Shown: positions 1 through 26,783 of the stretch, one piece after another | Numbering within the stretch: position 1 is the first letter of the stretch | Layout of the letters: the number at the start of each line of letters is the position of its first letter | Assembly (NCBI GenBank): GCA_949130485.1 | Contig: OX422185.1 | Location: 4,944,928 to 5,008,927 of the forward strand | Length of the DNA: 64,000 nucleotides | Source: Agelas oroides | Lineage: Eukaryota; Porifera; Demospongiae; Agelasida; Agelasidae | Direction of reading: 5' to 3' | Translations under genes and position numbers: made by a program | The notes under the pieces: model-generated | What the model saw: only the letters and a program-made list of their open reading frames with translations | What the model was told of the DNA's origin: nothing | The model's database searches: none

Positions 1-221
1 TGAGTTTGGGCTTGTATATCATTGGCACAGATTGCCTGAGTTGTCTTTCTGCCATAACAGCTGCAGTGCAACACAGCCCTTTAAGACTCTTGGTGCTTTG
101 GTCCCTGGTCCTCGGTCCCTAGGTCCAGTGTTTATAGTGTCCCCCCAATAAAACTCATCTCAAGGGATTCTGAAGTTCAAATACGCATAGATACTGTGGT
201 TATCGATGGTGACCCACACGT

Positions 222-226
<5 letters not shown>

Positions 227-285
<59 letters not shown>

Positions 286-296
286 CACACACACAT
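227..296. repeat. (CA)n microsatellite
   Basis: Near-perfect CA dinucleotide run of about 70 bases with one small interruption near its 3' end. It lies directly 5' of a possible splice acceptor (ttccttccag). Confidence 0.95.
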
Positions 297-305
297 TCCT
301 TCCAG

Positions 306-486
306 ATGCCAGTCAGTAGTAAAAAGTGGCATGCGAGTATTGGCCTAGCCAAGGCATCTCGACCCCTCTGGCCTCATGGTACCAGCCAGCCCATCAGAGG
401 GTGGACATCATGGGATGTAGTATTCTCCACTCTTCTGGATGCTATGCTGCTGTCTGGAGATGATAGAAGGGGAACAGGACAGAGAA
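306..486 (+). CDS. Possible 5' exon of gene A (weak)
   Basis: An ATG sits immediately after an acceptor-like ttccttccag, and the frame stays open for 60 codons to a donor-like GAA|gtgagt. The exon would end in phase 1, matching the phase used throughout the neighbouring gene. The other two frames are closed. The peptide (starts MPVSSKKWHAS, Trp- and Ser-rich) resembles nothing I recognise and has no signal peptide. It could be the first coding exon of gene A, part of an unrelated upstream gene, or chance. The call rests only on splice-site context and phase. Confidence 0.2.
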
Positions 487-764
487 GTGAGTAACTATAG
501 AATAAAGTCATACTGTTACATGTGTCAAAGTGTTTGTGAGGTATACACTAGGTCTTGAGCTACCCCATTCCTCCTCCCACAATGGTGGAGACTCTGGTAA
601 ACTAAGGCATGGGACATGTAATTTTGTACTAGATACACACATATTTATAAAAATCAATAGTGTGTATGGGAATCTTAAAGGACCAGATGAAACTTGATCT
701 GTGCATATGTGAAGCCCTAAGCTATACGCACGGTACAATTACTGATTATGTAATGTCGTCAAAG

Positions 765-893
765 GCGGAAAAGAAGATGACGTTTGCTCGCTACAAAATT
801 TGCTATACAAATTGGATAGTGATGAGACTCTACGCACACTACAGAAGTACCACCAACAGCAAGCTTACCTTCTTAAAGTTTTGTTGTTCTCTG
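765..893 (+). CDS. Possible exon upstream of the 2A exon of gene A
   Basis: The frame is open from a stop at 743-745 to a good donor TCT G|gtaagc at 893/894. It reads a hydrophilic, helix-like peptide (DETLRTLQKYHQQQAYLLKV and flanks). It ends in phase 1, and the 2A exon begins with the two bases needed to complete that codon, so the two can join in frame as Glu. The acceptor (gtcaaag before 765) has a poor pyrimidine tract and there is no in-frame ATG, so at least one more 5' exon would be required. No domain is recognised. Confidence 0.28.
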
Positions 894-1466
894 GTAAGCA
901 ATATTTCAAGCCATGTCCGATTGTTTTGTTTGCTGTTCTTCTGTTCCGCCATGACACAAGCAGTTCTCATGCGTACAGTCGGTAGTAGAGAGTAAAAAGG
1001 TCACTTGCATTTGAAGCGCTCAACCGCTGTATGGCATATAAAGTCCACGCTTCTGTTTCCTATGTACAGCTTGCAGGCCGAGGAACTCATTCATGGGGAT
1101 ATGACAACGATGTAGTCACAGAGCATGATGTAGAAAGTCACGATACATCGTTTGCATTTTACAGTTATGCTCACTTCTGTTAGTCACATGAGCTTTGCAT
1201 TGTGATCACATCAAAATTAAACCCCATGCCCATTTGCCACAATTCCTTACACTGTGTTAACCCTTCCAAGGCTGGGGGAAAGGATATAGAGGGTGATGAC
1301 AGGGGAAAAAGGAAAGAGGGTGGAGGGATGTGAAGTGGAGGAGGGAAAGGATAGAGGGGAAGAAAGGAGGGCAGAAAAATCAAACAAGGATCGTAGCTCT
1401 CAGAGAGTGAAAAGAGTTAATCTTCAAATTAATATCAACATCCATCTTTCCTTATCTTCTCCTCAG

Positions 1467-1583
1467 AAGGCATACCTAGAGGGAGGGAGACTGTGGGGGA
1501 CCTGTCACCCTCCCTCGTCACTGCTGTTCGAAGGAAACAGCTACTGATAATAGCAGGAGATGTTGAGACTAACCCAGGGCCAG
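1467..1583 (+). CDS. Gene A exon carrying a 2A ribosome-skipping peptide
   Basis: A strong acceptor (tttccttatcttctcctcag) precedes the exon and a donor (CCAG|gtacga) ends it. Both borders are phase 1. The encoded segment is about 38 residues and ends VRRKQLLIIAGDVETNPGP. Its last nine residues match the full 2A consensus D(V/I)ExNPG|P, preceded by the usual hydrophobic/basic upstream stretch. In 2A peptides the ribosome fails to form the Gly-Pro bond, so the upstream chain is released ending NPG and translation continues from Pro. Spliced to the next exon, the downstream product would start P-D-L-P and enter the death domain. N-terminal 2A leaders have been reported, from memory, in sea-urchin NLR-type proteins, and 2A also occurs in animal non-LTR retrotransposons, so the exon could be of transposon origin. 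No start codon is visible in this exon. Confidence 0.75.
1556..1582 (+). other. 2A-like motif GDVETNPGP
   Basis: Every position of the 2A core (D-V-E-x-N-P-G-P) is present, and the exon stops one base after the final Pro codon. The expected skip is between Gly and the last Pro. Recoding is inferred from the motif alone. Confidence 0.85.
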
Positions 1584-1747
1584 GTACGAATTTGATTATA
1601 TACGAAGTTTGCACGTCAGCCTACATGTACATAGTAGATGTGTATACAATTTATATTGTTGATATAACGAAATTTATGGCACATGCTAATATCTATTTAT
1701 ACAATCTACACCATCAGTGTGACTAAATTCCACTCTTCCCCAAACAG

Positions 1748-2092
1748 ATCTGCCAACACTAACTGAATGCATCAGATTCCAAGGAAGAGAAAGAAGAATC
1801 AACATTCCGCAGGAGATTGGCATCAAGTACTACCAGTTTGGCCGCCTTCTGCTGGATGATGACACTGGAGCAATGGTTCGTTCCATAGCCCACAAGCATA
1901 GGGATGATGCTGAACAAGTCACTTTGGAGATTCTCGAGGAATGGATTGCTGGCAGAGGCATGCATCCAGTCACCTGGAAGACACTCACACAAGTTTTACA
2001 TGACATTGATCTAAGCACACTAGCTAGTGAGATTGAAGCTAGCAAATATCAAGAAGGGATTGAAGCTGTGAATGATATACCATCTAACCAAG
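1748..2092 (+). CDS. Gene A death-domain exon
   Basis: The acceptor is ccccaaacag|atctgc and the donor is AACCAAG|gtaatc; both ends are phase 1. Joined to the 2A exon it reads PDLPTLTECIRFQGRERRIN and then an about 90-residue helical module. That module has the death-fold signature of amphipathic helices and a conserved Trp (GRGMHPVTWKTLTQVLHDID, helices 4-5) followed by LSTLASEIE. Death domains oligomerise homotypically in cytosolic signalling complexes. Here the domain precedes the GTPase, whereas in genes B and C it lies at the C terminus. The stretch RINIPQEIGIKYYQFGRLLL before it may be helix 1 or a short linker motif. A death-superfamily fold is likely; the exact subclass (DD, CARD or DED) is not certain. 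Confidence 0.72.
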
Positions 2093-2187
2093 GTAATCTT
2101 GCTGTGGTAACTGTTGGTGATACGATATCTGGCCTCAGAAATGGTTGTGAACATTTTTTGAAATTGGTAATTATGATTCTTGTTCAA

Positions 2188-2874
2188 AATTACGACCCCC
2201 CTTTTAGGTGAGTAGATTTAAATTAGCTACAAGTATGGGGGGGGGCTTATAATTGAAATCAGTCTCGTTTATACGCCCCCTTTCCTGGATACACATTTGT
2301 GGGTAGGTAATAACATCATAGTAAACACAACCTATCGTAGCTGACTAGCAATTTGAAACGGCACTATTCTACCACTGGATACTTACAGCTCCGACTTATA
2401 AGCCAGTTTCCAAGTTATATGAAGGTAGAACTCCTACCTCAAGTGAAAACTGGAGGCCGTTTGCTCACTGTGTTTGAGTAAAAGCTTTGTGTCTAGACTG
2501 CCCCAGCTAAACTCACGATCACTACAGACTAGCACCGCCTCTTCCTGCCTAGCTCCTTTCCAGAGTGATGATGTCAGTCAAAAGGTGTGGTCTAGCCTCA
2601 TTACTACTTAATATAAAGAGGCCTACCCCCAAGTTTCGCTAAGCTTCTTAGCTTCATGGTAAACAGCGAGTTCTACTTTACAGGCCACTTTAGTGGCCTT
2701 CCGCGTGGGCTAACTGGCAATTAGCTATTGGGCCACTGAAGTGGCCTCCCACATGTAATGAGTTAAATTTTTTGTATGGTCAAGGGGGGGGGCATAAATT
2801 GGAGATAAACATACCTCCGCAACACATTTTTGCAAATAGTAAGGGGGAGCTTATAATTGAAGGGGGCGTAATTT
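2188..2874. mobile_element. Inverted-repeat element in gene A intron 3
   Basis: The ends are imperfect inverted repeats (aattacgaccccccttt at the left, aagggggcgtaatt at the right). Inside each end the phrase gcttataattgaa recurs. The centre (about 2340-2640) is clearly similar to the interior of the TTAA-flanked element at 49295-49932: both contain agcaatttgaaacgg, tccaagttat and aaaggtgtggtct. It therefore looks like one non-autonomous element carrying a second. It fills most of the 1.1 kb intron between the death-domain and Roc exons. Confidence 0.5.
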
Positions 2875-3190
2875 CGAGTGATTACGGTAATGATGAACTA
2901 CTCTTGTTCCTAGGCCACTCACAAATTTTTACAACTAGTGATTTTAGTTCCTTCCTATCAGGAATCTAATGAAGTCTGTAGATTTCATTTCTTAATTCTT
3001 AATATAACTTATCATTCTTGAGGAACTTAATATACCAGCTGGGATCCATAGTGGACAGAACACTAAGCCAAAAGAGCCTGTCAAATTACGTGCATTAGAG
3101 ATGAACCAGATTATACATTGCATGTTATTGTGATTTGAATGAGTACAAGTGTGAGGTAATAAGAACACTTAATCACTTGTACATCTGCAG

Positions 3191-5406
3191 CTGATGCACA
3201 AGCAATACTGGAAGAGGCTCTTGAGAAAGGTTATGTTGACTGCCACATATGGAAGGTGCTAGTCACAGGAGCTGCTGGAAGTGGTAAAACATCGCTGAAG
3301 CATCGCCTCTTTGGAGAAAAGCCTCCTTGCATTCGTTGCAGTACTGCCCTGACTGAGGCTGCAATTCGAGCCGTCTCACGAGAGATTGTTGGTATAGATC
3401 AAACTGCCTGGTTTCGAGTCACAGCTGATAAGCTGATGGAATTGCTTGGTGCAGCTCTTAAGGCAGGTGTGCCAATGCAAGAGTTACCATCTGGTATAGC
3501 TAGGGTGGCTGTTAACAGACAGCCTCGTGCTCAAAAGGGTGTTAGTTCTTCAAAGCAAGAGCTGGTTCAGCTTGTAGAAAGGTCACAAGGTTCGAAGCGC
3601 TTCCTTGAGCTTCAGTGGATCCACTTCATAGACAGTGGTGGACAGCCTCAGTTTCATGAGGTTCTCCCAGCATTCATTAGAAACACCACAGCCACCATCT
3701 TTGTCATGAAACTTTCAGAAAGGTTAGATGAACATCCAACGATTGAGTATTATGATAGAAATGGGGAACTCTGTGGTAAGTCTTTTCGCCATGCACTTAG
3801 TAATCATCAGATGCTCCAGTGTTGTGTTCGAACAATCCTCTCAAGACCATCGACAGGCAAAGGAAAGCATTCAAAGACTCTTATAGTTGGTACACACCGA
3901 GATCGAGAATCTTCTTGTTCTGAATCACGAACTAAGAAGAACAGAAAGCTGATCAATATGCTAGTACCATCATTACAAGATCAACTAGTGCACTACCGTC
4001 TCGGAACTGAAGTCATCTTTCCAATCAATGCAAGGAAACCAAAGGAACGAGATCACCATGTATGTGCAGAGATTCGCAAGCAAATTGAAGATAAGAAAAA
4101 TGCTCCTCCTCCCTACAAGATTCCCATTGGATGGTTCCTACTGGAGCAAGACATTATCAAGGCATCAAAAGGCGGTGTCATCAGCAAACAACAATGTGCT
4201 GGTATTGCTTCAATCTTAAACATTGATGTAGAAGCTCTCAATGCAGCACTAAAATACTTTGATGACCTCAACATTTTCCTCTACTACCCATCTGTTCTTT
4301 CAGAGATAGTGTTCGCTGACCCGCAAATACTCCTCAACAAAGTCACAGAACTAGTTCACTTCAGCTATAGTCTGCAAACTTATAGTCCACCAGTAGGCTT
4401 AGAAGGTAAGTGGCTGCAGTTTCGAGACAAGGGGATAGATAGTCTGCAAACTTATAGTCCACCAGTAGGCTTAGAAGGTAAGTGGCTGCAGTTTCGAGAC
4501 AAGGGGATAGTGACACTTGAAATATTTCAAGATGAACGCTTCTCAGCTCACTACATTCCAGACCTGTTCACTCCAGCAGATTTTATCAAGCTGCTTGAGT
4601 ATCTTCGTATTATAGCTCCCCTCTCCAGCACAGAGTATTTCATGCCTTCACTTTTGCAGACGATCACTCCAAAAGAGATTAACCACCTGCTTCCACCACC
4701 ATCCACCTCTGCTGCACCTTTGCTTGTCCACTTCCCAGCTGGATGTGCCCAGAATGGAGTCTTTTGTGCTCTAGTAGTTTATCTGGTTTCTAAATGTCAA
4801 TGGAAGTTTGCTTGTGACATTGAAGGCAACCCACTTTGTGTCTCTCGTAACACTGTTTGCTTTCAGATTCCAGGTAAACAAGCTTCCATTATACTGGTCG
4901 ATAGCTTTTCGTATTTTGAGGTGCATGTAAAAATGCCCACTATCATGTACCCTAAGGTTTGTCCTATGATCCAAGATGTTATATTTAGTGGATTGAAAGC
5001 AGCTGCTGCTACCCTGAGATACATTGATCGTACAGCAATATCTGCGTTCTTCTGTAAGTGTAGCTTGTCACACCCACATGCTGCAACCACTGATGAAGAC
5101 TCCTACTTGATGTGCACTCAATCAACCCACTATGAACGTCTCACCAAACACCATGCTGTATGGCTAGACATGAAGCTGCCAGCTGAAAAAGGTGCACTCT
5201 CCATGTCATTGAATGTGGTTGCTATTTTTGTCTGCTTTTTTCTAACTATAAGTGGTAACCACATCACAAGTGGAAAGGAAGACCCAATAGAAATAGTCCT
5301 GCCCATGAGAACTATTGGCCAGAGACAGATATTTGACACTGCATGTCCACAAAGCAAAGTTAGATTAACATGTACAACTCCAACATTAACATGTACAACT
5401 CTATAA
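3191..5406 (+). CDS. Gene A Roc-COR (ROCO-type) GTPase exon
   Basis: The acceptor is cttgtacatctgcag and entry is phase 1. About 20 residues in is the P-loop GAAGSGKTS (3268-3294). The switch motif DSGGQPQF follows at 3631, and VGTHRD serves as the base-recognition motif. After these comes a COR-like half with a winged-helix-like stretch (PIGWFLLEQDIIKASKGG) and the conserved YFMPSLL block. DxGGQ plus a following COR half is typical of ROCO proteins (LRRK2/MFHAS1 group), whose GTPase and dimerisation modules act as a switch. A 24-residue segment is duplicated in tandem. The frame runs past the place where genes B and C have a donor (here LPAEK|gtgcac), adds about 70 residues including a hydrophobic stretch (LNVVAIFVCFFLTI), and ends in TAA. 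Either this is a true terminus with a membrane anchor, or splicing occurs at the conserved site and this tail is intronic. Confidence 0.8.
4369..4512 (+). repeat. 72-bp in-frame tandem duplication in gene A
   Basis: The second copy starts at 4441 and is essentially identical to the first, giving two copies of a 24-residue block (SLQTYSPPVGLEGKWLQFRD and four more). Each copy contains GAAG|gtaagt, a perfect donor-like sequence. The paralogues have a single, unrelated-looking segment here. Confidence 0.9.
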
Positions 5407-5729
5407 AGCAGGTGTGAGTCACACCTACAGGCCTTAGCTACAAGGAAGCCAGGCTCTACTGAAAATGTATGTGGAAGAGTTCAAACTAGATTTTCCACTG
5501 TTCGCGAAAATATTGCAAAGGAAATTTTGACGTGCAACACACACACTTCACGCTCTGACTGCAGGAGCGTTGATGAACAACATCCTGGGGCTATAAGCTG
5601 CCGAATCTGCAAGGAACTCTCTCCGAAGAGATACCTTCAAAGTAGGCATTGCTTTGCTGACAGCTGCAAGCTGGAGTGGACGACGGTGTGACGTTGCGTG
5701 TTAGATAAACTGGTTAACCAAGCGGTTTG
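5407..5729. other. Gene A 3' flank, no gene seen
   Basis: No canonical AATAAA was seen close to the stop. A short open stretch around 5545-5690 (ISCRICKELSPKRYLQSRHC and on) is Cys-rich but unsupported by splice or start signals. Confidence 0.4.
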
Positions 5730-6400
5730 GTGCCATTTTGCCTATACTCCCATTTTGCCTACTAAAAATCAAAATGTGCCATTTCACCTACTCAACTAAA
5801 AACAGTTTCTAAGTAAAGCAAAGAGTATATTTTAGTTACTACGTACAACACTTTATGGTGGTTGGGAACCAGTTGCCAGCTGAGCAATCAAAGCTTCTGT
5901 GCGTGCTTGTTCCTGTTTAAAAATTTATATACATTGGGATGAGCTTCTCTGGCAACTCATATTGCCCACCAACCATGTTCCTTCAAAGTATGTTACAAAA
6001 CTTATCAACTCTGGGCAGATTAGGAGCTGTAACCTTGGCTGCTTCCAGGCTAGTTGTACAAATCGAAGAGGCACAAAGCCTAGTGCAACTGTCTGGCGTT
6101 TGAAATGAATAAAATAAGCCCAAGTGTGGATACCCTCCAATTTAGGGCTTGCATGAGCAAAGTGGAAAAAGAACCCCTTCACCTCAGTTGTAGAAAAGGC
6201 AAGCTCAGTTGCTTGGATGCTTGTCTTAGCGTCAAAAACTATTTTTGGCTGAGTAGACGAAATGGCACAATATGATTTTTAGTAGGTGAAATGGGAGTAG
6301 ATGAAATGGCACAATATGATTTTTAGTAGGTGAAATGGGAGTAGACGAAATGGCACAATATGATTTTTAGTAGGTGAAATGGGAGTAGGCGAAATGGCAC
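5730..6400. mobile_element. Non-autonomous inverted-repeat element (about 670 bp)
   Basis: The left end (gtgccattttgcctatactc) and right end (gagtaggcgaaatggcac) are inverted. The right arm has expanded into three tandem 44-bp units (starts at 6259, 6303 and 6347, with a fourth partial at 6391). There is no transposase ORF. It resembles a MITE whose right terminus has amplified. Confidence 0.65.
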
Positions 6401-6547: not shown

Positions 6548-9056
6548 TCTGCCGAAAACTGGGACCAACTTACACAATCTGCACATCTTCACAATCCTTG
6601 TCTTATTGTTTAATCAATTTTGTCACACCCTTGCACAAACTACACACAAGACATAGAAAGTGTAGCCTACTGTTGTGCAAACGCTAGCTCTAACTTGCTG
6701 ATCAGCCAAGAGGTGATCATTGTAATGGTATCTTGTAGCAAAGAGCATGTAGAATCAGAATTTCACATACCGGTACACCTTTTAATAAAAGCCACATTAT
6801 GTACGTAGATAAATGACTTTATCGGCCATAGTGAAGTTGCAACATGAAAAGGTAAGAATTACTGTGAAAACAAGCTAATGTCCGAAATTTCCTCATATGG
6901 TGATAAATGTGCTACAAAGAAGTAATTACTTGAGGAACAGGAAATCCAATCTAGACAACACAGCTCTTAAGGAATGAGTAAAACCATAGCATCTAGAGTG
7001 AAGTGCGCTAAGCCTGTACAATGTCTCATTCTGCCTACTGAGGATGCCTGTGCAAATGCAACTTGAAAGCCACATAGGGCAAGATAATTCTATATTATGG
7101 CAATAGCATGAGCCACATTCATTGTTGACCATTGGTCAGTGTTGTAAGAAACACTGACCAAAGAAGAGTGTTGTAGATGCATAGGATGTGCCACAATACA
7201 ACAAGCCAGTAGCTAAGTGCGCACTTCACTGAATTGTCAAAGTAGCTTATAGCTTAGTGTGGCTGTGCTGGATTAATAATCTGCTAGCAGCAACTTGTAG
7301 CTAATAGTATAGCTTGTATAGCTTGTTAACAGTATATGTGCTTTAGTCTTCACACAAGGCTCTCAAACTATAAATTGGGATGACATGTATAGGGTCACTG
7401 AAAGTCAACAATTTCAATTAGCAGTGGTTTGAAAAGATTGGGCGTACCTAGTTTCTGCAAATAAAAGTATCTTCATGTCAAAATATATGGGTAGCTTAGC
7501 CACTGTAAAATTGTGCATTAGTGTATGTCCTATTTATTAGTGACAAATGTCACCCATGCTGTTGCCATGGATTATAGTTCTCAGCTTTAGCACCTGAGCT
7601 GTGGATACTTCAATGAGTACTGTTTACAGCTAATATCAAATAACTCCACTCATACAGTTTAGCAGTGATTTGCAAATAGATCTCATATTCTCATCTGGAT
7701 GTCTATAATTACTGGAATATACACTGGAATGGTGGCATGGACTATGGAATGGACAATTGAACTTTTGTTACATAGCTATGTAGCTATCCCTATAAACTAC
7801 TCCCTGAGTCTAAAAGTGGCCAACCATCCTTATGTGCTCTTGCTGGTATAGCTAGGGTCCTTACCTCACTGCAAAGAGGAACCCAAATGCCAACATTGGT
7901 CTACCCTTTTAAAGTTCTTGAGAAAGAATGTTCCCAGGCACCACTCAGCTTTTCATAGTCATGTTGAAAATGAGGCTGTTACACATGGCTGTTTGTGGTT
8001 TCAAGTGTCAGACTGGACTGCGACATTGAGAGGATGAATGTTATAGATTTAATGGTGATTTGTCTACCCTGGATTAATTTGCTAATTTCATATACACATG
8101 CTAGCTAGCTACAAGTTTGTCCAGCAAACCAGACCCAACCAATCACAATATCACTAGCAGCTAAGCTTGTGTACCAGGCAAGGAACTTCATGTCAGCAAC
8201 GACTTTTCATATGGAACATGGAGCAAGTAATGTACTCAAGTGTTTTACAATTGTATATACTGAAAGATGACAAGGGTCTTGGTCCACAAAATAACAAAAG
8301 TGAGGTAGGTGCTACCTTGATTATCCCGCTGACAACTTCGGACTAGCTACCAATGTTGTGTGTCACCTGTGTGTGGACGAGTTTACATATGCAGAAATAT
8401 GACTAGCCTTGTACCCAAGCCACATGGGTATGAGGCTAAAATATGACCAACCTGAACAGTCTGAATATTTGAGGACTATGTTTTCATAATCTCAGACCAA
8501 TAGCGAATGCAGTACTCAAAGGTATTATTGCAGCTCTAGTGCTTGTATGTTCCTAGTTTTAAATGTAAACAGCAAGATGAATTATTTTTAGGTGTACAAA
8601 GATTTTATTCTAACCTACTAAACTGGCAACTCAGATGCACATTTTCAAAAACATCAGGTGAAGATGACTGTTGTAACTGTTGTATTAGATTTGATCATAA
8701 TCACATCTCAAGATGCTGTAGTGATCAACTTCATTGACATTATATGAATAAAAGAAGTGACGAATAAGTGCAGTTTCAATAGTACATGGTGCAGTTACCA
8801 TGTTTTAATATTTCAATCATTAAACATAAACAGAACGGTAAATCTTTGCTTTTGGCATACTGATGTGTACTAGTATGTGTTTGTCACCTGGTAATTTGTG
8901 GTAAGCCTGAGCAAGACCCACACTAGTGATTTGAATTGTTGATTGTCTTTCTGTGTATATTATATAAATTTTCACTTGTCATCATACCTAAAAAAAATGA
9001 GAGAATATGTGAATTCCACTGTTGTTTACATCCAGTGTACATGTTTTTTTATGCAG
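6548..9056. other. Intergenic/5' region of gene B, first exons not identified
   Basis: No domain-bearing exon was found. A 68-bp phase 1-1 candidate exon (about 8592-8659, acceptor attatttttag, donor TCAG|gtgaag) could supply upstream sequence for gene B but encodes nothing recognisable. The phrase gcctgagcaagacccacactag at about 8907 is one of a dispersed family of such motifs in this window. Confidence 0.4.
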
Positions 9057-11188
9057 ATAATGATTATTACCTGTCAAAATGTGAGCAAGTAATGCATGAG
9101 TCTGGAACAATGGATCAAACTATTATGCACTGCATATTTGTGGGACCTGCTGGAGTGGGGAAGAGTTCATTACTGAAACGTCTACTTCGTAAGAAGTTGG
9201 TTTCAAAGCGCACTAGTACACAAGCAGCAGAGAAGTCAGTACAGGTTGAAATCATCAGAGATGTGACAATTTCAATTTCACAGGCGTCTTTACTAATTGG
9301 ACAATTGTCTACAAACATAGGAGATCCAGCTTCAAGTGGGCAATTGACTTTAAAACCGAAGAAACAAATACAAGATCCATTGACACGGTCTCCTGAGCCA
9401 TCATTTACAATACAAGAGGTCATTAAAGAATATCATCCCACAACCCATGATCAAAAAAGAGAAATTCCGGAGCAAAAAGGGCAAGTACTGGTATCCAAAG
9501 AACAATCAAGTGAAAGTCCTCAAGTTCACTCACCTGCAGAAGTAACAATCTCGTCTGAATCCATTACATCAAAGAGCAGTCATTCCAACTTCAATATGAG
9601 CCTTGATTTCTTTCGACATGTTTTGAAGGAAGAAGGTGTTTCTGGATTGAAAAAGCATCTTGATAACAGGTGGACCCTCTACCTGACTGATTCGGGAGGT
9701 CAGCCTGAATTTCAAGAGCTCCTACCAGCTCTAGTAGTAGGCCCTTGTGTTTTTTTTATAGTCTTACCTCTTAATCGAGACCTAAATATGAAATATGAAG
9801 TAGAGTATGTGAGACCAGATGAACAGAAATACATGCGAAAATATCTTTCCAGTCTCACTGTACAAGAAGATCTTCTGCGGTCCCTTGCAAGCATTGCCTC
9901 CACTGAGTACAAGGATAAAGATGGAATTGAAGTCAAACCAAGGGTGATACTTGTTGCCACTTTTAAGGACAAAGTTACAAAAGAGGAATGTCAAAAAACA
10001 CTAGACAGTATCAAAGCCCTGGTTACAAAAACAGATGTTTACCGTCAAGGTATGATAGTGGATGCCTCTGAAACCCAGATGGTGTTTACCATAAACAATG
10101 CCTCTGATGTTGAATCTGAGAAAGACGCTCAGAAAATACGTGATGCTTTTCAGAAAATTGCTGATGGCTTTAAGGTCTGCACTCCTGCTCCATGGCTAAT
10201 TTTTAGCATACTACTCCAGTATATGAGTGAAAAAGGTGATGTTGTAAGCAAATCAGAATGCTTTGCAGTTGCCCAGGAATGTGGTATCAAATCTCCATCT
10301 GAGTTTGAAGCAGCTCTCCAGTTTCTTCATAAACAAAGTGGTGTACTTCATTACTACATGGAACCATCTGAGCTCAATCAGATTGTACTTCGAAACCCAC
10401 AGCACCTCTTTAGCAGGGTGAATGAGCTGGTAGAAAAAACCTTTACATTTAAAGTGACTCAAACTAACCAATGTACCGATGATTTCAAAAGGGGCATATT
10501 TAGAAGAACAGATTATGAGAGGTATACATTGGCCAAAGAATCTAGCAGCAACAAAATGACCCCCACCATGCTTTTGAAGCTCCTTGAGCACCTGAATGTG
10601 GTTGTATCACTAGATAGTGGTGAAAAGTACTTCATGCCTTGTGCAATTGCTCACCTTGAGCCCGCTGATATCGGTCTTCTCCCACAACCATCCCCCATTC
10701 CTCCACTACTGATAACATTCAAGAGTGGCTACTGCCCTAAAGGGCTGTTTGGATCACTCGTAGCTTGCATTGCAAACAAGCAAGTGGAAAATTCTACACT
10801 GGATTTAGATCAATCAAAAATCAACCGAGATCAAATCTGCTTTGCAATGGGCCAGTGTATTCTTCTCTTAAGAGTCAAAGCCACTTGTATCTACATTGAA
10901 GTTAGCCCTTGCAACCCAGATGTGCCTCTGTCAACCTTATGTAACAATGTTCGCAAACTGATTTTTGATAACATTGAACGAGCATGTAAGGCATTACATT
11001 ACTCGCTGACACCAAATAAACACTACTTTCTGTCATTTGAAGGCTGGTGTGATCAATGTGAGAAACTTCACCCAGTTGCATTACAACCTGTCCTAAATGT
11101 TGATCACTTAAAAGTTGATTTGTTCCAGTGCAATCAATCTCAGAAAGCAGTCAAGCCAAGTCTACAGTTGTATGTATGGCTTCCAGAG
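9057..11188 (+). CDS. Gene B Roc-COR (ROCO-type) GTPase exon
   Basis: The acceptor is tgtttttttatgcag (phase 1 entry) and the donor is CCAGAG|gtgagt (phase 0 exit). The P-loop is GPAGVGKSS (9143), followed by a Ser/Lys-rich variable insert of about 100 residues. DSGGQPEFQELLP lies at 9689, TVQEDLLRSLASIAS next, and VATFKDKV occupies the G4 position (TFKD, an atypical version of NKxD). The COR-like half (APWLIFSILLQYMSEKGDVV, LHYYMEPSELNQIVLRNPQH, KYFMPCAI) ends at LQLYVWLPE. It was read as spliced-in because the frame upstream of 9057 gives low-complexity hydrophobic residues. Internal Met codons near SGTMDQTIM could be starts if this exon is first. Role: cytosolic nucleotide-dependent switch. 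Gene B couples it to Ig and death domains in cis. Confidence 0.8.
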
Positions 11189-11360
11189 GTGAGTAGACAA
11201 CAGCATGGTGCATATTAGTCACTGTGTACAGAAGTTTTAATACTAGCCTGCCAACAAAGGGCATTTAGTGCAACAAATTATGCCAACAAGCTGCAACTGC
11301 AGTAAAGTTAGGGCCCTGCATGTCATCGGATAAGTGTCAGTTTTGTTTCCATTCCATTAG

Positions 11361-21974: not shown

Positions 21975-24205
21975 ACCATTGTAGGATGCACAATTGGCAC
22001 TCCCTAAACTGGGAACTGTCCCCAGGCCTTGATAATGACATATTAGCTGGTAGTCACTTGTCTTTTGACTATATTCTACCCCTTACACTACATCCAAGAG
22101 TTTGGTCATTCCAATTTAACTTTTAGTTTCTGGTCTTCTGCCTGTTTCTAGTTTTACAATTGAATTTATGAAAACTAATCAGTTACATCATCAAAATTGT
22201 AATTAGTGTGTGAATGCATAACTATAAAGAAAATGACTCGTGTAGGTCTTGTGTAGTTCTCACAGAGCTCCATGTATCCATGGAACTCTCAAATACCAGC
22301 ACCTTCTGTGGCTACTATCACAATGTCATCAAGCAGTAGCAGGGGACAATGAAGTATGAAAATGACTGCAGCTATCCAAATGAAGTGTGAAAGGCATAAT
22401 ATTGTATGCAGGAATGAAAATTTTGTGAAGGTTAATGTAATCAGTAGTCCTCATCTTGCATTGTGTAGGAAAGAAATATAGGAACAGAAAATAAACATTA
22501 ATCTGGAGTAGCGTTAGCAGTTAATTGTGCAAGTGCTATTCAGTGAAAGCATGAAATTAAAACTGGTCTTCATTTCCATACACTGAGATTCTGTTTTACA
22601 GCCAAGTTATATTGTTCGGCTTGCATGCCAGTTGCCTTTTGTCTTAACCCTTTAGCCAATAATGGTGTCTGTACTCATCAATTTTGGTTGCATGTTTTGG
22701 CACAATCTGTTTTGAAGATTGGTCTTGTACTAGTAGAAAGGGTGGGATAGATGGAGGTTGGGAAGTTTAGGCAAGGGGTGCCATCCATCTGGAATTTGAA
22801 TTTAAGTACTTCAGAATACTGGAGAGTGGCAGAAATTCCCTATTTCTGTTTGAAAAGTATAAATCTCTGCAAAGTCTATGTGCAGTTTTCTACCTTAACT
22901 TTGGTTGCTCTAAGCTGCCATAAAAATGAACCGTCTGTTCAGTATACTTCACTAGTGGCTGTTTATTGAATAAACTATTCATCTGCACCCAATGTAGCAA
23001 ACATTTGTCAATACTAGTTTAGTGTGTGCATGTAGCACATGTAGCTAAGTATGGACAAGTGATTGCCAGGTGTAGTGACTGGTGATTTATACCAGTAGTC
23101 ACACTTACAGAACATTATGGAGATTAATTGCTAAGCCGTTCCTAATAAACATGAAGTAAAAATGAGGAAAAATAGTGTGCAATGACTATGGCTCACTCAC
23201 CCACCTACTGCTTCATTATATGATTTGTACAGTTTAGTTTTGTTTGTGTTGCAGCTCATCAATTTGGCTGTGTGAGTGTAGTATGAACAGAAGGTTGATC
23301 ATTACTGAGCTAAAATGACAAAAAGATGCTGCTGACTTCTAGAAACCACCTTATAGTCTGTCTGTAGTGACTTTGCTGACATCTCAAGATGGTTTATTCA
23401 GTGCTCCTAGAATGGTAAGCAGACCAGCTAGGTACCCATATAGTATCTGTCAGCCTGTTTGAATCTGCATAGACTACATGATGTAATGGTCGCATGTGCA
23501 TGATAGTGGCATTATGGAGCCAGTAACACGTTCACTTGCCCGAAGGTGGGATTCAGCGAGTTGTGTACAGGTGGAGCACAAAACTCCATCGTATGCAACG
23601 TCTGTTCTCATAGCACTGGAGAAGTTTGAAAGATGTACCATTCTGCCAGATGGCTTTGAAAACAATGTCTACAAGCCAAGTTAAAGTGTTAGAAGTTGAT
23701 TAACTATGGCTTCCACACCTACAGAAATTGCGGTTTGTGTGGATTGAGAAGCCACCTGATAGAATGTCATCATAGGGTTGACATATAATGTAAACTCTCT
23801 GTGGTTTACTTGTATCTTCATGTCCAACATCAGCCATGAATCAGGTCAAAAACATGATATAAGTACTGGAGCCAGTCCCTTGAGGACTCTCCAGTACTTT
23901 ATTTTCCAGTTTTTTGTACAATGTATACACTACTTATCTTTATAGTCAGATTAAGCACCAACAGTCCTTCAACTCATGAGTTCCCACATGCAGACTATAT
24001 GCAAGCACTGATGTGTTCATTAGTTGTCAAATCCACTCTGCATATGAATAATCACTATCTTCCATGCGATCAAGATTAAAAATTAATACTGTAAATGGGT
24101 CATATACTACGTTTACTACTGACTTAGTATATATCCTAGCTACTGACAAAGCCAATATACTGATTTTGGTATCTTCCTTTCATACTCTCCCCTTCTGCCA
24201 TTCAG
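21975..24205. other. 5' region of gene C, no exon recognised
   Basis: No death or Ig domain and no other coding signature could be found. The gene C 5' exons are therefore unknown. Confidence 0.4.
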
Positions 24206-26631
24206 TCCTCCCACATATAGAGACACACCTGGCCACCCTTGAGCAAGCCATACAACACAAAGAGAAGATAAGGAAAACTATCATGCAATGTGTCTTCATT
24301 GGCATTCCTCGCTCAGGCAAAACCAGCCTAATGAAGCGTATAGTAGGTGAAGACCTCCCCCGCATTTCTCCCAGCACTGGGATAGCCGAAAAAGCAGTGC
24401 AAGTAGTTGTGAAACCCTCGGCAGCATGTGTGAGTGAATCCGACTCAACATGGACGAAGCTTAACAATGATGAAGAGGCCGCCATGGTCATCATGGATGC
24501 ATCTCGGTGTCGTTTGGACCCAGTAGGTGGTGATTCAATGCCTTCCACTGACACTTCTCATAGTCATTTGGACCCAGTAGGTGGTGATTCAATGCCTGCC
24601 ACTGACACTTCTCATAGTCATTTGGACCCAGTAGGTGGTGATTCAATGCCTGCCACTGACACTTCTCATAGTCATTTGGACCCAGTAGGTGGTGATTCAA
24701 TGCCTGCCACTGACACTTCTCATAGTCATTTGGACCCAGTAGGTGGTGATTCAATGCCTGCCACTGACACTTCTCATAGTCATTTGGACCCAGTAGGTGG
24801 TGATTCAATGCCTGCCACTGACACTTCTCATAGTCATTTGGACCCAGTAGGTGGTGATTCAATGCCTGCCACTGACACTTCTCATAGTCATTTGGACCCA
24901 GTAGGTGGTGATTCAATGCCTGCCACTGACACTTCCCAGAGTCCAGTAGGTGGTGATTCAACACCTGCCACTGACACTTCTCAGAGTCTTTTAAACACAG
25001 TAGGTGGTGATTCAAGAACTCCAGAAGTTATAGCACCTGTGCCTCAGTCTGAAGTTCCAATAGATATCTGTAGACGTGCACTTCAAAATGCAGAAAAGCT
25101 CATACAAGAGCCAGGCTGGTTGGTCTACCTGACAGACACAGGAGGTCAAATTGAGTTCCAGGAACTCCTTCCTCAGTTTCTCTCAGGTCCGACGGTGTTC
25201 TTCCTGGTATTCCGATTGGACAAAAAACTCAACAAGCCATTCAAAGTGAAGTACGTCTGCCACAATGGTAAAAAGTCAAAGCCCTACAAGTCCACCTTGA
25301 CGGTGCAGGATGCCCTCATCCAGTCACTCACCAGCATTGCCTCCATGGCATCCAATGAAACCCAGGTGTTCTTTGTTGGAACACATAGTGATAAGGTTCG
25401 TAAGCTACAAATCAATCACATCAATGATAACCTTCAACAGTTAGTAAAATCAAAAGGCTTGGACTGTAAACACATAGTTAGGAGGGGCTCTGAGTCTTGC
25501 ATGTTGCTGACAGTCAACAACCTGTCTGATCATGATCCTGGCATCCAACAGGTTCGGAGAGCTATGGAGCGACTGCACAAACAGAAAGAATTTGGGGTCG
25601 AAGCCTCTCCTTCCTATCTAATCTTTGGTCTGGTTATTCGACAACAAAAGGATAGTGTTCTCAGATACAAGGATTGCCTTGAGTTGGCCACTCAGTGCAA
25701 CATCAAAAAAGAAGACTTAGATGATGCTCTTAAGGTCCTCCATACAAAATTAGGTGTGATTCGTCACTACCAGGAAAAAAGCCTCCAGGATATTGTGATT
25801 CTAAACCCACAGGTACTTTTTGACTGCATCACTACCCTGGTGGAAAAGGCCACTTTTGAAAATGATCCTACTGGCTGGGGGGAATTTGGGAAGGTAGGTA
25901 TCTTTCCATTCAGCACTATTGAGGGAAGTTCTGAACCTCTCATCACTTCATTCTGGCTGGTGAATCTCCTAAAATACCTCCACATTATTGCCCCACTGGA
26001 GGAGGAGGAGGGGGAGAAGAAATACTTTATGCCATGTGTACTAGCACGTGCCCAACCAGCAAAAGCTGGCACCTCACGGTTTGGTAGAAAGCAATTGGCT
26101 AAGCAAGTTCCCTCTCTCCTCATTTGCTTCGAAAATGGCTGCTGCCCACTGGGTCTCTTTACAGCCCTTGTGGTGTACCTTCATGCAAAGCAAAAGATGG
26201 AAGAGGGTTTCCAGTGGCGTCTCAACAAAGACAAGATCTTCAAAAATCAGATCTCCTTTTCTGTGGGTCCCGGTTACACAGTCTCAATAACAGGGTGGCC
26301 AGATTTCTTCAAGATTACCTGCACCCCTCCATCATCTGTGGTTACAGGAACTAATCTACCTGACATATGTAAAGAAGTACGAAAACGCCTCAAGACAGGG
26401 ATCCAAGATGTGATATCACGCCTGCCTTACAAAGATACCCACTATTTGGCATTTGAATGTACTAGGGACCACCGAAGTCACAACCAAATGGACATCCACT
26501 CAGCAGCAATCCTCGACCACCTTGGCAAAAATTTAACCCTGGAAACATCCAATGAACCATGCATACTCATGTGTAAGCTCGAAGAAAATGATTTATCTCT
26601 TCCCATAGGGCATGAGATTTGGTTCCCTAAG
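24206..26631 (+). CDS. Gene C Roc-COR (ROCO-type) GTPase exon with tandem-repeat insert
   Basis: The acceptor is ccccttctgccattcag (phase 1) and the donor is CCTAAG|gtacat (phase 0). The P-loop is GIPRSGKTS (24301). Then comes an insert of ten 18-residue-type repeats, the switch DTGGQIEFQELLP (25135), TVQDALIQSLTSIASM, and VGTHSDKV as the G4-type motif. The COR-like half (SYLIFGLVIRQQKDSVLRYK, KYFMPCVLARAQ) ends EIWFPK. The intact frame extends upstream to an ATG at 24064, but that extension is hydrophobic, unlike the paralogues, and is crossed by a good acceptor, so I start the exon at 24206. It is predicted to be a GTP-switch protein linked in cis to Ig, TM and death-domain exons. Confidence 0.82.
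24508..25015 (+). repeat. 54-bp (18-residue) coding minisatellite in gene C
   Basis: There are eight near-identical units of SHLDPVGGDSMPATDTSH plus two degenerate ones. It interrupts the Roc domain between the P-loop and the DTGGQ switch. Near-identity at the DNA level indicates recent expansion, so copy number is probably polymorphic. Confidence 0.95.
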
Positions 26632-26783
26632 GTACATACATACAGTGACCATTACTAATATGTATACAGAGCTCCTTTGTACTGTGATGTGGTAGTTTCA
26701 CGTTAGTTTCGTAAATTGCTGCTCTAAAATATCAAACACAACTAATGAACATTGTTGTATTATGATTTTCTCATTAAATGTAG

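Follow-up and report, generated by a model that had tools for sequence, protein, structure and literature searches.

A predicted Agelas oroides gene with a probable StopGo (2A) leader ahead of a death domain and a Roc-COR-type GTPase, likely belonging to a larger set of such death-fold genes across the genome

The closest described systems include the NLR genes of the sea urchin Strongylocentrotus purpuratus, in which 2A-like sequences were found in 85 of 241 NLRs, and 14 of 87 later NCBI NLR entries have a 26-residue N-terminal 2A-like sequence; one such leader showed ~80% recoding in vitro, and chains made without skipping pass into the exocytic pathway (Roulston et al. 2016, PMC4981915). 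NLRs are named among the cellular 2A carriers (PMC11512398), and cellular genes are said to contain StopGo only very rarely (PMC12846837). The StopGo core has been defined as (D/G/C/N)(V/I)ExNPGP, and the L-rich upstream hexapeptide ends in (A/S/C)G before p12 = D; natural octapeptide sequences from four upstream classes, including the L-rich motif 6, were ~93% to nearly 100% active in a reporter test, and full StopGo activity can require more than the motif's 14 residues (PMC12846837). Outside viruses and NLRs, 2A has been reported in non-LTR retrotransposons (Odon et al. 2013, as cited in PMC11512398), and the occurrence of 2A motifs in the proteomes of viruses and cells has been surveyed (Rao et al. 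2025, Cell Rep 44:115822, as cited in PMC12846837).

The stretch of A. oroides DNA analysed here (64,000 nucleotides, hereafter the window) includes a plus-strand gene at 306-5406, composed of four predicted exons. Its features are (window positions):

306-486, plus strand: leader exon 1, 181 nt, starting at AG/ATG and ending in phase 1 at GAA/GTGAGT
1467-1583, plus strand: 2A exon, 117 nt, phase 1-1, acceptor AG at 1465-1466 and donor GT at 1584-1585
1556-1582, plus strand: StopGo core GDVETNPGP, the predicted skipped bond lying between Gly (1577-1579) and Pro (1580-1582)
1748-2092, plus strand: death-domain exon, phase 1-1, acceptor CAAACAG
3191-5406, plus strand: Roc-COR-type GTPase exon, open to a TAA at 5404-5406

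The predicted exons, once joined, give 2859 nt in one frame with a single, terminal stop; introns 1, 2 and 3 are in phase 1 throughout, and sequence reading found all four exons open and phase-compatible. The last codons of the 2A exon are GGA GAT GTT GAG ACT AAC CCA GGG CCA, followed by one base before GT, and the predicted exons place the 2A in frame with the coding sequence before and after it, with no internal stop. The initial annotation had claimed that the 2A exon ends one base past the last Pro codon and that the 2A, death-domain and Roc-type GTPase exons share one frame; direct reading of the sequence bore out both points under the predicted splicing. The locus appears to be a real gene with leader, 2A, death-domain and Roc-COR-type exons. 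There is no ATG in the 2A exon, and an upstream exon is therefore required. An exon ending at 893 had been proposed for this role and was rejected: the sequence between exon 1 and the 2A exon is not conserved in the two paralogous loci (named gx and g3) and does not align with them, and a copy of this stretch located upstream of the window (L085) seems to lack the donor at 893, as judged from its translation. In blastn comparisons of window positions 1-6000 with the 5' stretches of gx and g3 (without their Roc parts), only 276-493 and 1455-1581 aligned; because exon 1 and the 2A exon alone align with the paralogs, 306-486 is taken as the conserved partner exon. This exon is ATG-bearing and phase-compatible, and its start context and donor position are the same in the homologs.

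The sea-urchin leaders, named as the nearest parallel when the locus was first annotated, keep that place after comparison with the published data (PMC4981915). Like SpNLR2A, the predicted window gene has an N-terminal StopGo leader ahead of a death domain, and both cases involve a death-domain immune family with a hydrophobic leader ending in D(V/I)ExNPGP, present in many copies. They differ in that SpNLR2A is a 26-residue N-terminal sequence on NACHT-LRR genes, whereas the window leader has 98 residues, is encoded by two exons and stands on a Roc-COR-type gene; also unlike SpNLR2A, the window 2A is an own phase 1-1 exon, in a genome with 283 exact sites. The core and the L-rich hexapeptide are those of viral StopGo/2A (Li et al. 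2026, PMC12846837), but viral 2A is a polyprotein joint, whereas the window 2A belongs to the N-terminal leader of a predicted intron-bearing cellular gene. The non-LTR retrotransposon 2A is matched in the same genome by a 2A before retrotransposon-like frames (L076, by eye); in contrast to it, the window 2A exon precedes death and Roc domains and no transposon family was found in the seven open frames scanned around it. ROCO proteins of the DAPK1 type have Roc-COR plus a C-terminal death domain. The window gene likewise combines Roc-COR with a death domain, but the death domain is ahead of Roc, a 2A leader is present, and the Pfam scan of the gene's exons detected no kinase.

N-terminal 2A on immune genes is already known from the sea urchin, and part of the genome-wide 2A picture may already be in print in Rao et al. 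2025. A literature search, with most subscription papers and bioRxiv preprints outside its scope, found, among the results listed, no report of 2A in immune genes of sponges or of its fusion to a ROCO gene, and PMC8623073 gave no passage on cellular 2A. As far as this search shows, what is new is the extent of 2A use, its placement on a phase 1-1 exon of its own, its recurrence in different leader families and its attachment to a ROCO-type gene.

The window sequence DVETNPGP (1559-1582) fits the StopGo core, and the hexapeptide LLIIAG ahead of it is L-rich and ends in AG before p12 = D (matched by eye with the published classes); exon 1467-1583 is predicted to encode a complete StopGo/2A signal, LLIIAG-DVETNPG/P. 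Between the window and gx, the nine core codons differ by six synonymous changes and one non-synonymous change, the latter at the free position of the motif. On the sequence comparisons made here, we consider it probable that this is a leader-2A-death-domain-Roc-COR gene subject to StopGo recoding and a member of a genome-wide death-fold leader set. Most likely, the 2A nascent chain would make most ribosomes skip the Gly-Pro bond, releasing a 98-residue leader ending in NPG and a separate death-domain/Roc-COR protein started by Pro; the ribosomes that do not skip would produce a leader-fused form. Since the leaders of the paralogs and of NLR-type relatives contain a strongly hydrophobic segment resembling a signal or anchor, this leader-fused form could be directed into the secretory route, by analogy with a sea-urchin NLR leader for which this has been shown.

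When the genome was searched with exon 1 and the 2A exon, the following homologous features were located, the Roc matches being the closest relatives of the window Roc exon near each paralog:

C3:5936316-5936507 (exon 1) and C3:5935778 (2A), minus strand: locus g3, exon 1 57% identical to that of the window
C3:5898852-5899043 (exon 1) and C3:5898310 (2A), minus strand: locus gx, exon 1 51% identical to that of the window
C3:5919203, minus strand: closest Roc relative by g3, 79% identity over the best-matching part, among the matches listed
C3:5883362, minus strand: closest Roc relative by gx, 79% identity over the best-matching part, among the matches listed
C3:1291613, minus strand: 2A-only homolog
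C3:4942275: exon-1-only copy, 2.65 kb upstream of the window

The Roc relatives are on the same strand as the exon 1/2A pairs, ~15.2-16.6 kb downstream of that of g3 and ~13.5-14.9 kb downstream of that of gx. In gx, which was read through, exon 1 and 2A are followed by three death-domain exons and then by a Roc exon, every located boundary being of phase 1 (predicted); g3 was only sampled, which gave its exon 1 and 2A, a death domain no more than 1.5 kb away (L064) and the position of the Roc match. The leader-2A-Roc frame of the window gene thus appears to be common to two paralogs; the N-terminal death domains of gx belong to a subtype other than that of the window. For exon 1 plus 2A, dN/dS was 0.47 between the window and gx (dS 0.56) and 0.46 between the window and g3 (dS 0.51), values that place the leader only moderately below 1; the value for gx against g3, which are recent copies (0.88), was obtained at a dS of 0.06 and is little informative. 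The Roc exon, with a dN/dS of 0.23 at a dS of 0.72 between the window and gx, appears to be under purifying selection.

The fold assignments of the death-domain and Roc exons rest on sequence profiles. Pfam Roc matched exon 3191-5406 below the cut-off (E=0.00023); the same exon is homologous to the tandem window exons 8930-11215 and 24052-26655, which pass the COR-A cut-off. Both the Roc and the COR parts by which a ROCO GTPase is defined appear to be present, the COR part through this homology. The Pfam scan of the window gene's exons detected no NACHT, and a PDB sequence search with the Roc exon gave no match. The window death-domain exon matched Pfam Death with E=0.00067 and 20.2 bits, under the cut-off of 22.6, and its PDB sequence search gave one weak, unrelated-looking match (E=0.028). 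A profile of the window death-domain subtype recovers other death domains, six of the seven scanned matching Pfam Death at E<=0.01.

The genomic distribution of this subtype bears on the best-surviving alternative, namely that leader/2A and death-domain/Roc are transcribed separately, or that a recent rearrangement is not expressed as one gene, a reading which we regard as unlikely. Of 281 candidate window-type death domains, 150 were scored, and 149 remained after the row of the window's own 2A exon was dropped. An exact 2A was present up to 5 kb upstream in one of the 149 places, the window itself; the nearest same-strand Roc within 8 kb was upstream in 27 places and downstream in one, again the window (the Roc set comprised 101 places from the matches listed, N-terminal pieces left out, of 152 matches in total). 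An earlier count from a partial list had given Roc upstream in 23 of 24, and the 29 paralog loci of the subtype showed no NPGP within 1.5 kb on either side; a single one of them had a Roc match, upstream of the death domain. A uniform 2A-death domain-Roc family was rejected, the subtype being usually behind Roc with 2A upstream in 1/149. Because 2A upstream and Roc downstream of this subtype occur in the window only, the exact joint between 2A and the death-domain subtype is a one-off among the places scored, which speaks for a rearrangement, as does the partial exon-1 duplication upstream of the window. Against it, gx has the order exon 1-2A-death domains-Roc with phase-1 boundaries, g3 has exon 1, 2A and a Roc match 15-17 kb on, the Roc exon appears to be under purifying selection, and the four window exons are open and phase-compatible. 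The one-off death-domain exon weakens the case for the exact fusion, not for the leader. Under the favoured leader-2A-death-domain-Roc-COR reading, the leaders of this gene set would end in a 2A that mostly lies at an exon boundary of phase 1, and the window death-domain exon was probably recruited from another, C-terminal position; such recruitment would be easy because the exons are phase 1-1.

Just upstream of the window, L085 (C3:4941700-4944927) contains a degenerate copy with exon 1 only and a duplicated intron piece, a partial duplication which is a sign of tandem duplication or local rearrangement. In the window, three Roc-COR-type exons stand in tandem on the plus strand (3163-5403, 8930-11215, 24052-26655), and a death domain and an NPGP frame were found only ahead of the first of them. 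At C20:6412974-6702641 (minus strand), window-type death-domain exons with 58-60% identity to the query form a long array.

The 2A motif is abundant in the genome and often stands ahead of death domains. The exact pattern GGN GAY RTN GAR NNN AAY CCN GGN CC matched 283 times (158 forward, 125 reverse). Chance was rejected as the source of the motif: ~0.03 matches would be expected in 259 Mb with equal base use, and the reversed pattern, used as a control over the whole genome, gave 0 forward and 0 reverse. Among 150 scored NLR-type death-domain exons, a same-strand 2A was present upstream within 500 bases in 42, within 1.5 kb in 59, within 5 kb in 88 and within 8 kb in 96, compared with 0, 0, 0 and 2 downstream at the same distances and none on the opposite strand up to 8 kb (277 of the 283 sites were listed and used in the neighbour counts); in six plus-strand cases the 2A adjoins the death domain, with no room for an intron. 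The 88/150 is no estimate for all death domains, because 150 of 828 candidates were scored with a query from a 2A-linked gene. From the 2A side, 48 loci (30 from the top of the site list, which are all on contig C1, and 18 chosen by hand, many of the 48 being related copies) had a same-strand death domain downstream in 32, upstream in 0 and antisense in 0, with a profile built partly from the same loci; an almost independent profile (from L001-L031, only L031 having been chosen by 2A) detected it in 22 of the first 30, L031 included. Within 8 kb of the 277 sites, a same-strand NACHT match followed the 2A in 11 cases and preceded it in 1, and none was on the opposite strand (105 of 314 NACHT candidates scored). 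One 2A-death-domain locus (L041, continued in L061) has, about 1 kb downstream, a frame that exceeds the NACHT cut-off (E=1.8e-8); LRR matches come after it in another frame and below the cut-off. At the 2A site C3:3309696 a Roc-type exon follows 1.9 kb downstream, and no death domain was found between them. The initial annotation, in presenting 2A ahead of a death domain as a feature of this locus, had understated it: the arrangement is frequent genome-wide (88/150), and for the window subtype it stands in the window only (1/149). These distributions point to a modular N-terminal StopGo leader on death-fold genes, the window gene being one member of a genome-wide set.

The leaders of the other 2A loci were compared with that of the window. 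Downstream of NPGP, the nearest donor-like site has phase 1 in 43 of the 48 loci, mostly at a distance of 4-13 bases; the donor pattern is permissive, and two of the 43 are probably chance (that of L031, where a single frame holds both 2A and death domain, and that of the retrotransposon-like L075). Several leader families encode leader and 2A in a single open frame, mostly with ~100-170 residues before the 2A and with a hydrophobic stretch. In another family, searched with a query that contained the 2A letters, the alignment begins within the first 30 leader residues in 79 of 86 rows and extends to the 2A end in 67 of these but not in the other 12; of the 70 copies aligned through residue 100, 67 reach that end. 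The best 19-residue hydropathy means were 0.90 for the window leader, 2.11 for gx, 1.96 for g3 and 1.59-2.61 for four leaders of other families. Judged from hydropathy, membrane targeting is plausible for the leader family, and the case for the window copy is weak; dual targeting is doubtful for the window copy because its hydrophobic stretch is weak (0.90).

These hydrophobic stretches would also suit a leader acting as a plain signal or anchor, with an inert or nearly inert 2A-like end and mainly one fused chain as product, and transmembrane segments have been reported in sponge NLR architectures (PMC12909245). We find this improbable: the exact NPGP core has persisted through changes at synonymous sites, which is more than a signal sequence needs, it is also kept across several leader families (some of their loci chosen by motif), and the core and the upstream hexapeptide fit the published StopGo classes. 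There is little probability, too, in the proposal of the initial annotation that inclusion or skipping of the symmetric 2A exon switches between recoded and unrecoded forms. Its frame compatibility stood, the 2A exon being 117 nt long and phase 1-1, so that 306-486 joins the death-domain exon in frame without it; as a general mechanism it fell, because in other leader families the leader start and the 2A share one open frame, where skipping would remove the protein start. The 2A exon as a fossil of a non-LTR retrotransposon lying between gene exons, outside the working gene, is very improbable and was rejected, although three sampled 2A sites look like retrotransposon frames by eye (L071, L075, L076). 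A Pfam scan of seven open frames from both strands of window 85-2966 yielded nothing above the cut-off and no transposon family, death and Roc domains follow downstream, and at paralogous loci the 2A exon is again found next to its partner exon, with splice sites and phase unchanged.

Going beyond StopGo recoding of the window gene, we tentatively propose, as a possibility to which we attach a rather low probability, that StopGo has been taken up wholesale as a shuffled N-terminal module on death-fold NACHT and Roc-COR genes, where the skipping share would set, per gene, the balance between free cytosolic and membrane, leader-bound receptor; where cell-death receptors are located might then depend on how the translation machinery is working, for example under stress or infection. 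The recoding-based partition of immune receptors between compartments proposed for the sea urchin (PMC4981915) becomes testable here, and 2A leaders would be one possible explanation of the transmembrane segments reported in sponge NLRs (PMC12909245). Many natural StopGo variants in one genome also provide material for testing how skipping is tuned.

Several smaller observations were made on the same sequences. At L071, L075 and L076 the 2A is followed by zinc-finger-like stretches, as seen by eye, and at L076 also by an endonuclease-like one, which suggests that 2A is used by retrotransposons in the same genome; the Pfam scan of 1.9 kb of L076 gave only sub-threshold PHD and C1 matches, with no reverse transcriptase and no endonuclease. 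The motif W(R/H)-x2-3-G was present in 13 of 48 leader frames, compared with 1.6 expected by shuffling, and in those 13 it stands within a start M-x6-7-W-R-x-x-I-G, common to several 2A leader families (L048, L050-L053, L055, L056, L065, L069, L070, L072-L074); the window and paralog leaders start similarly. We know of no name for this leader-start motif. The Roc-COR exon of the window includes a near-exact, in-frame tandem duplication of 72 bases (4369-4440 and 4441-4512), the two copies differing only in their last bases.
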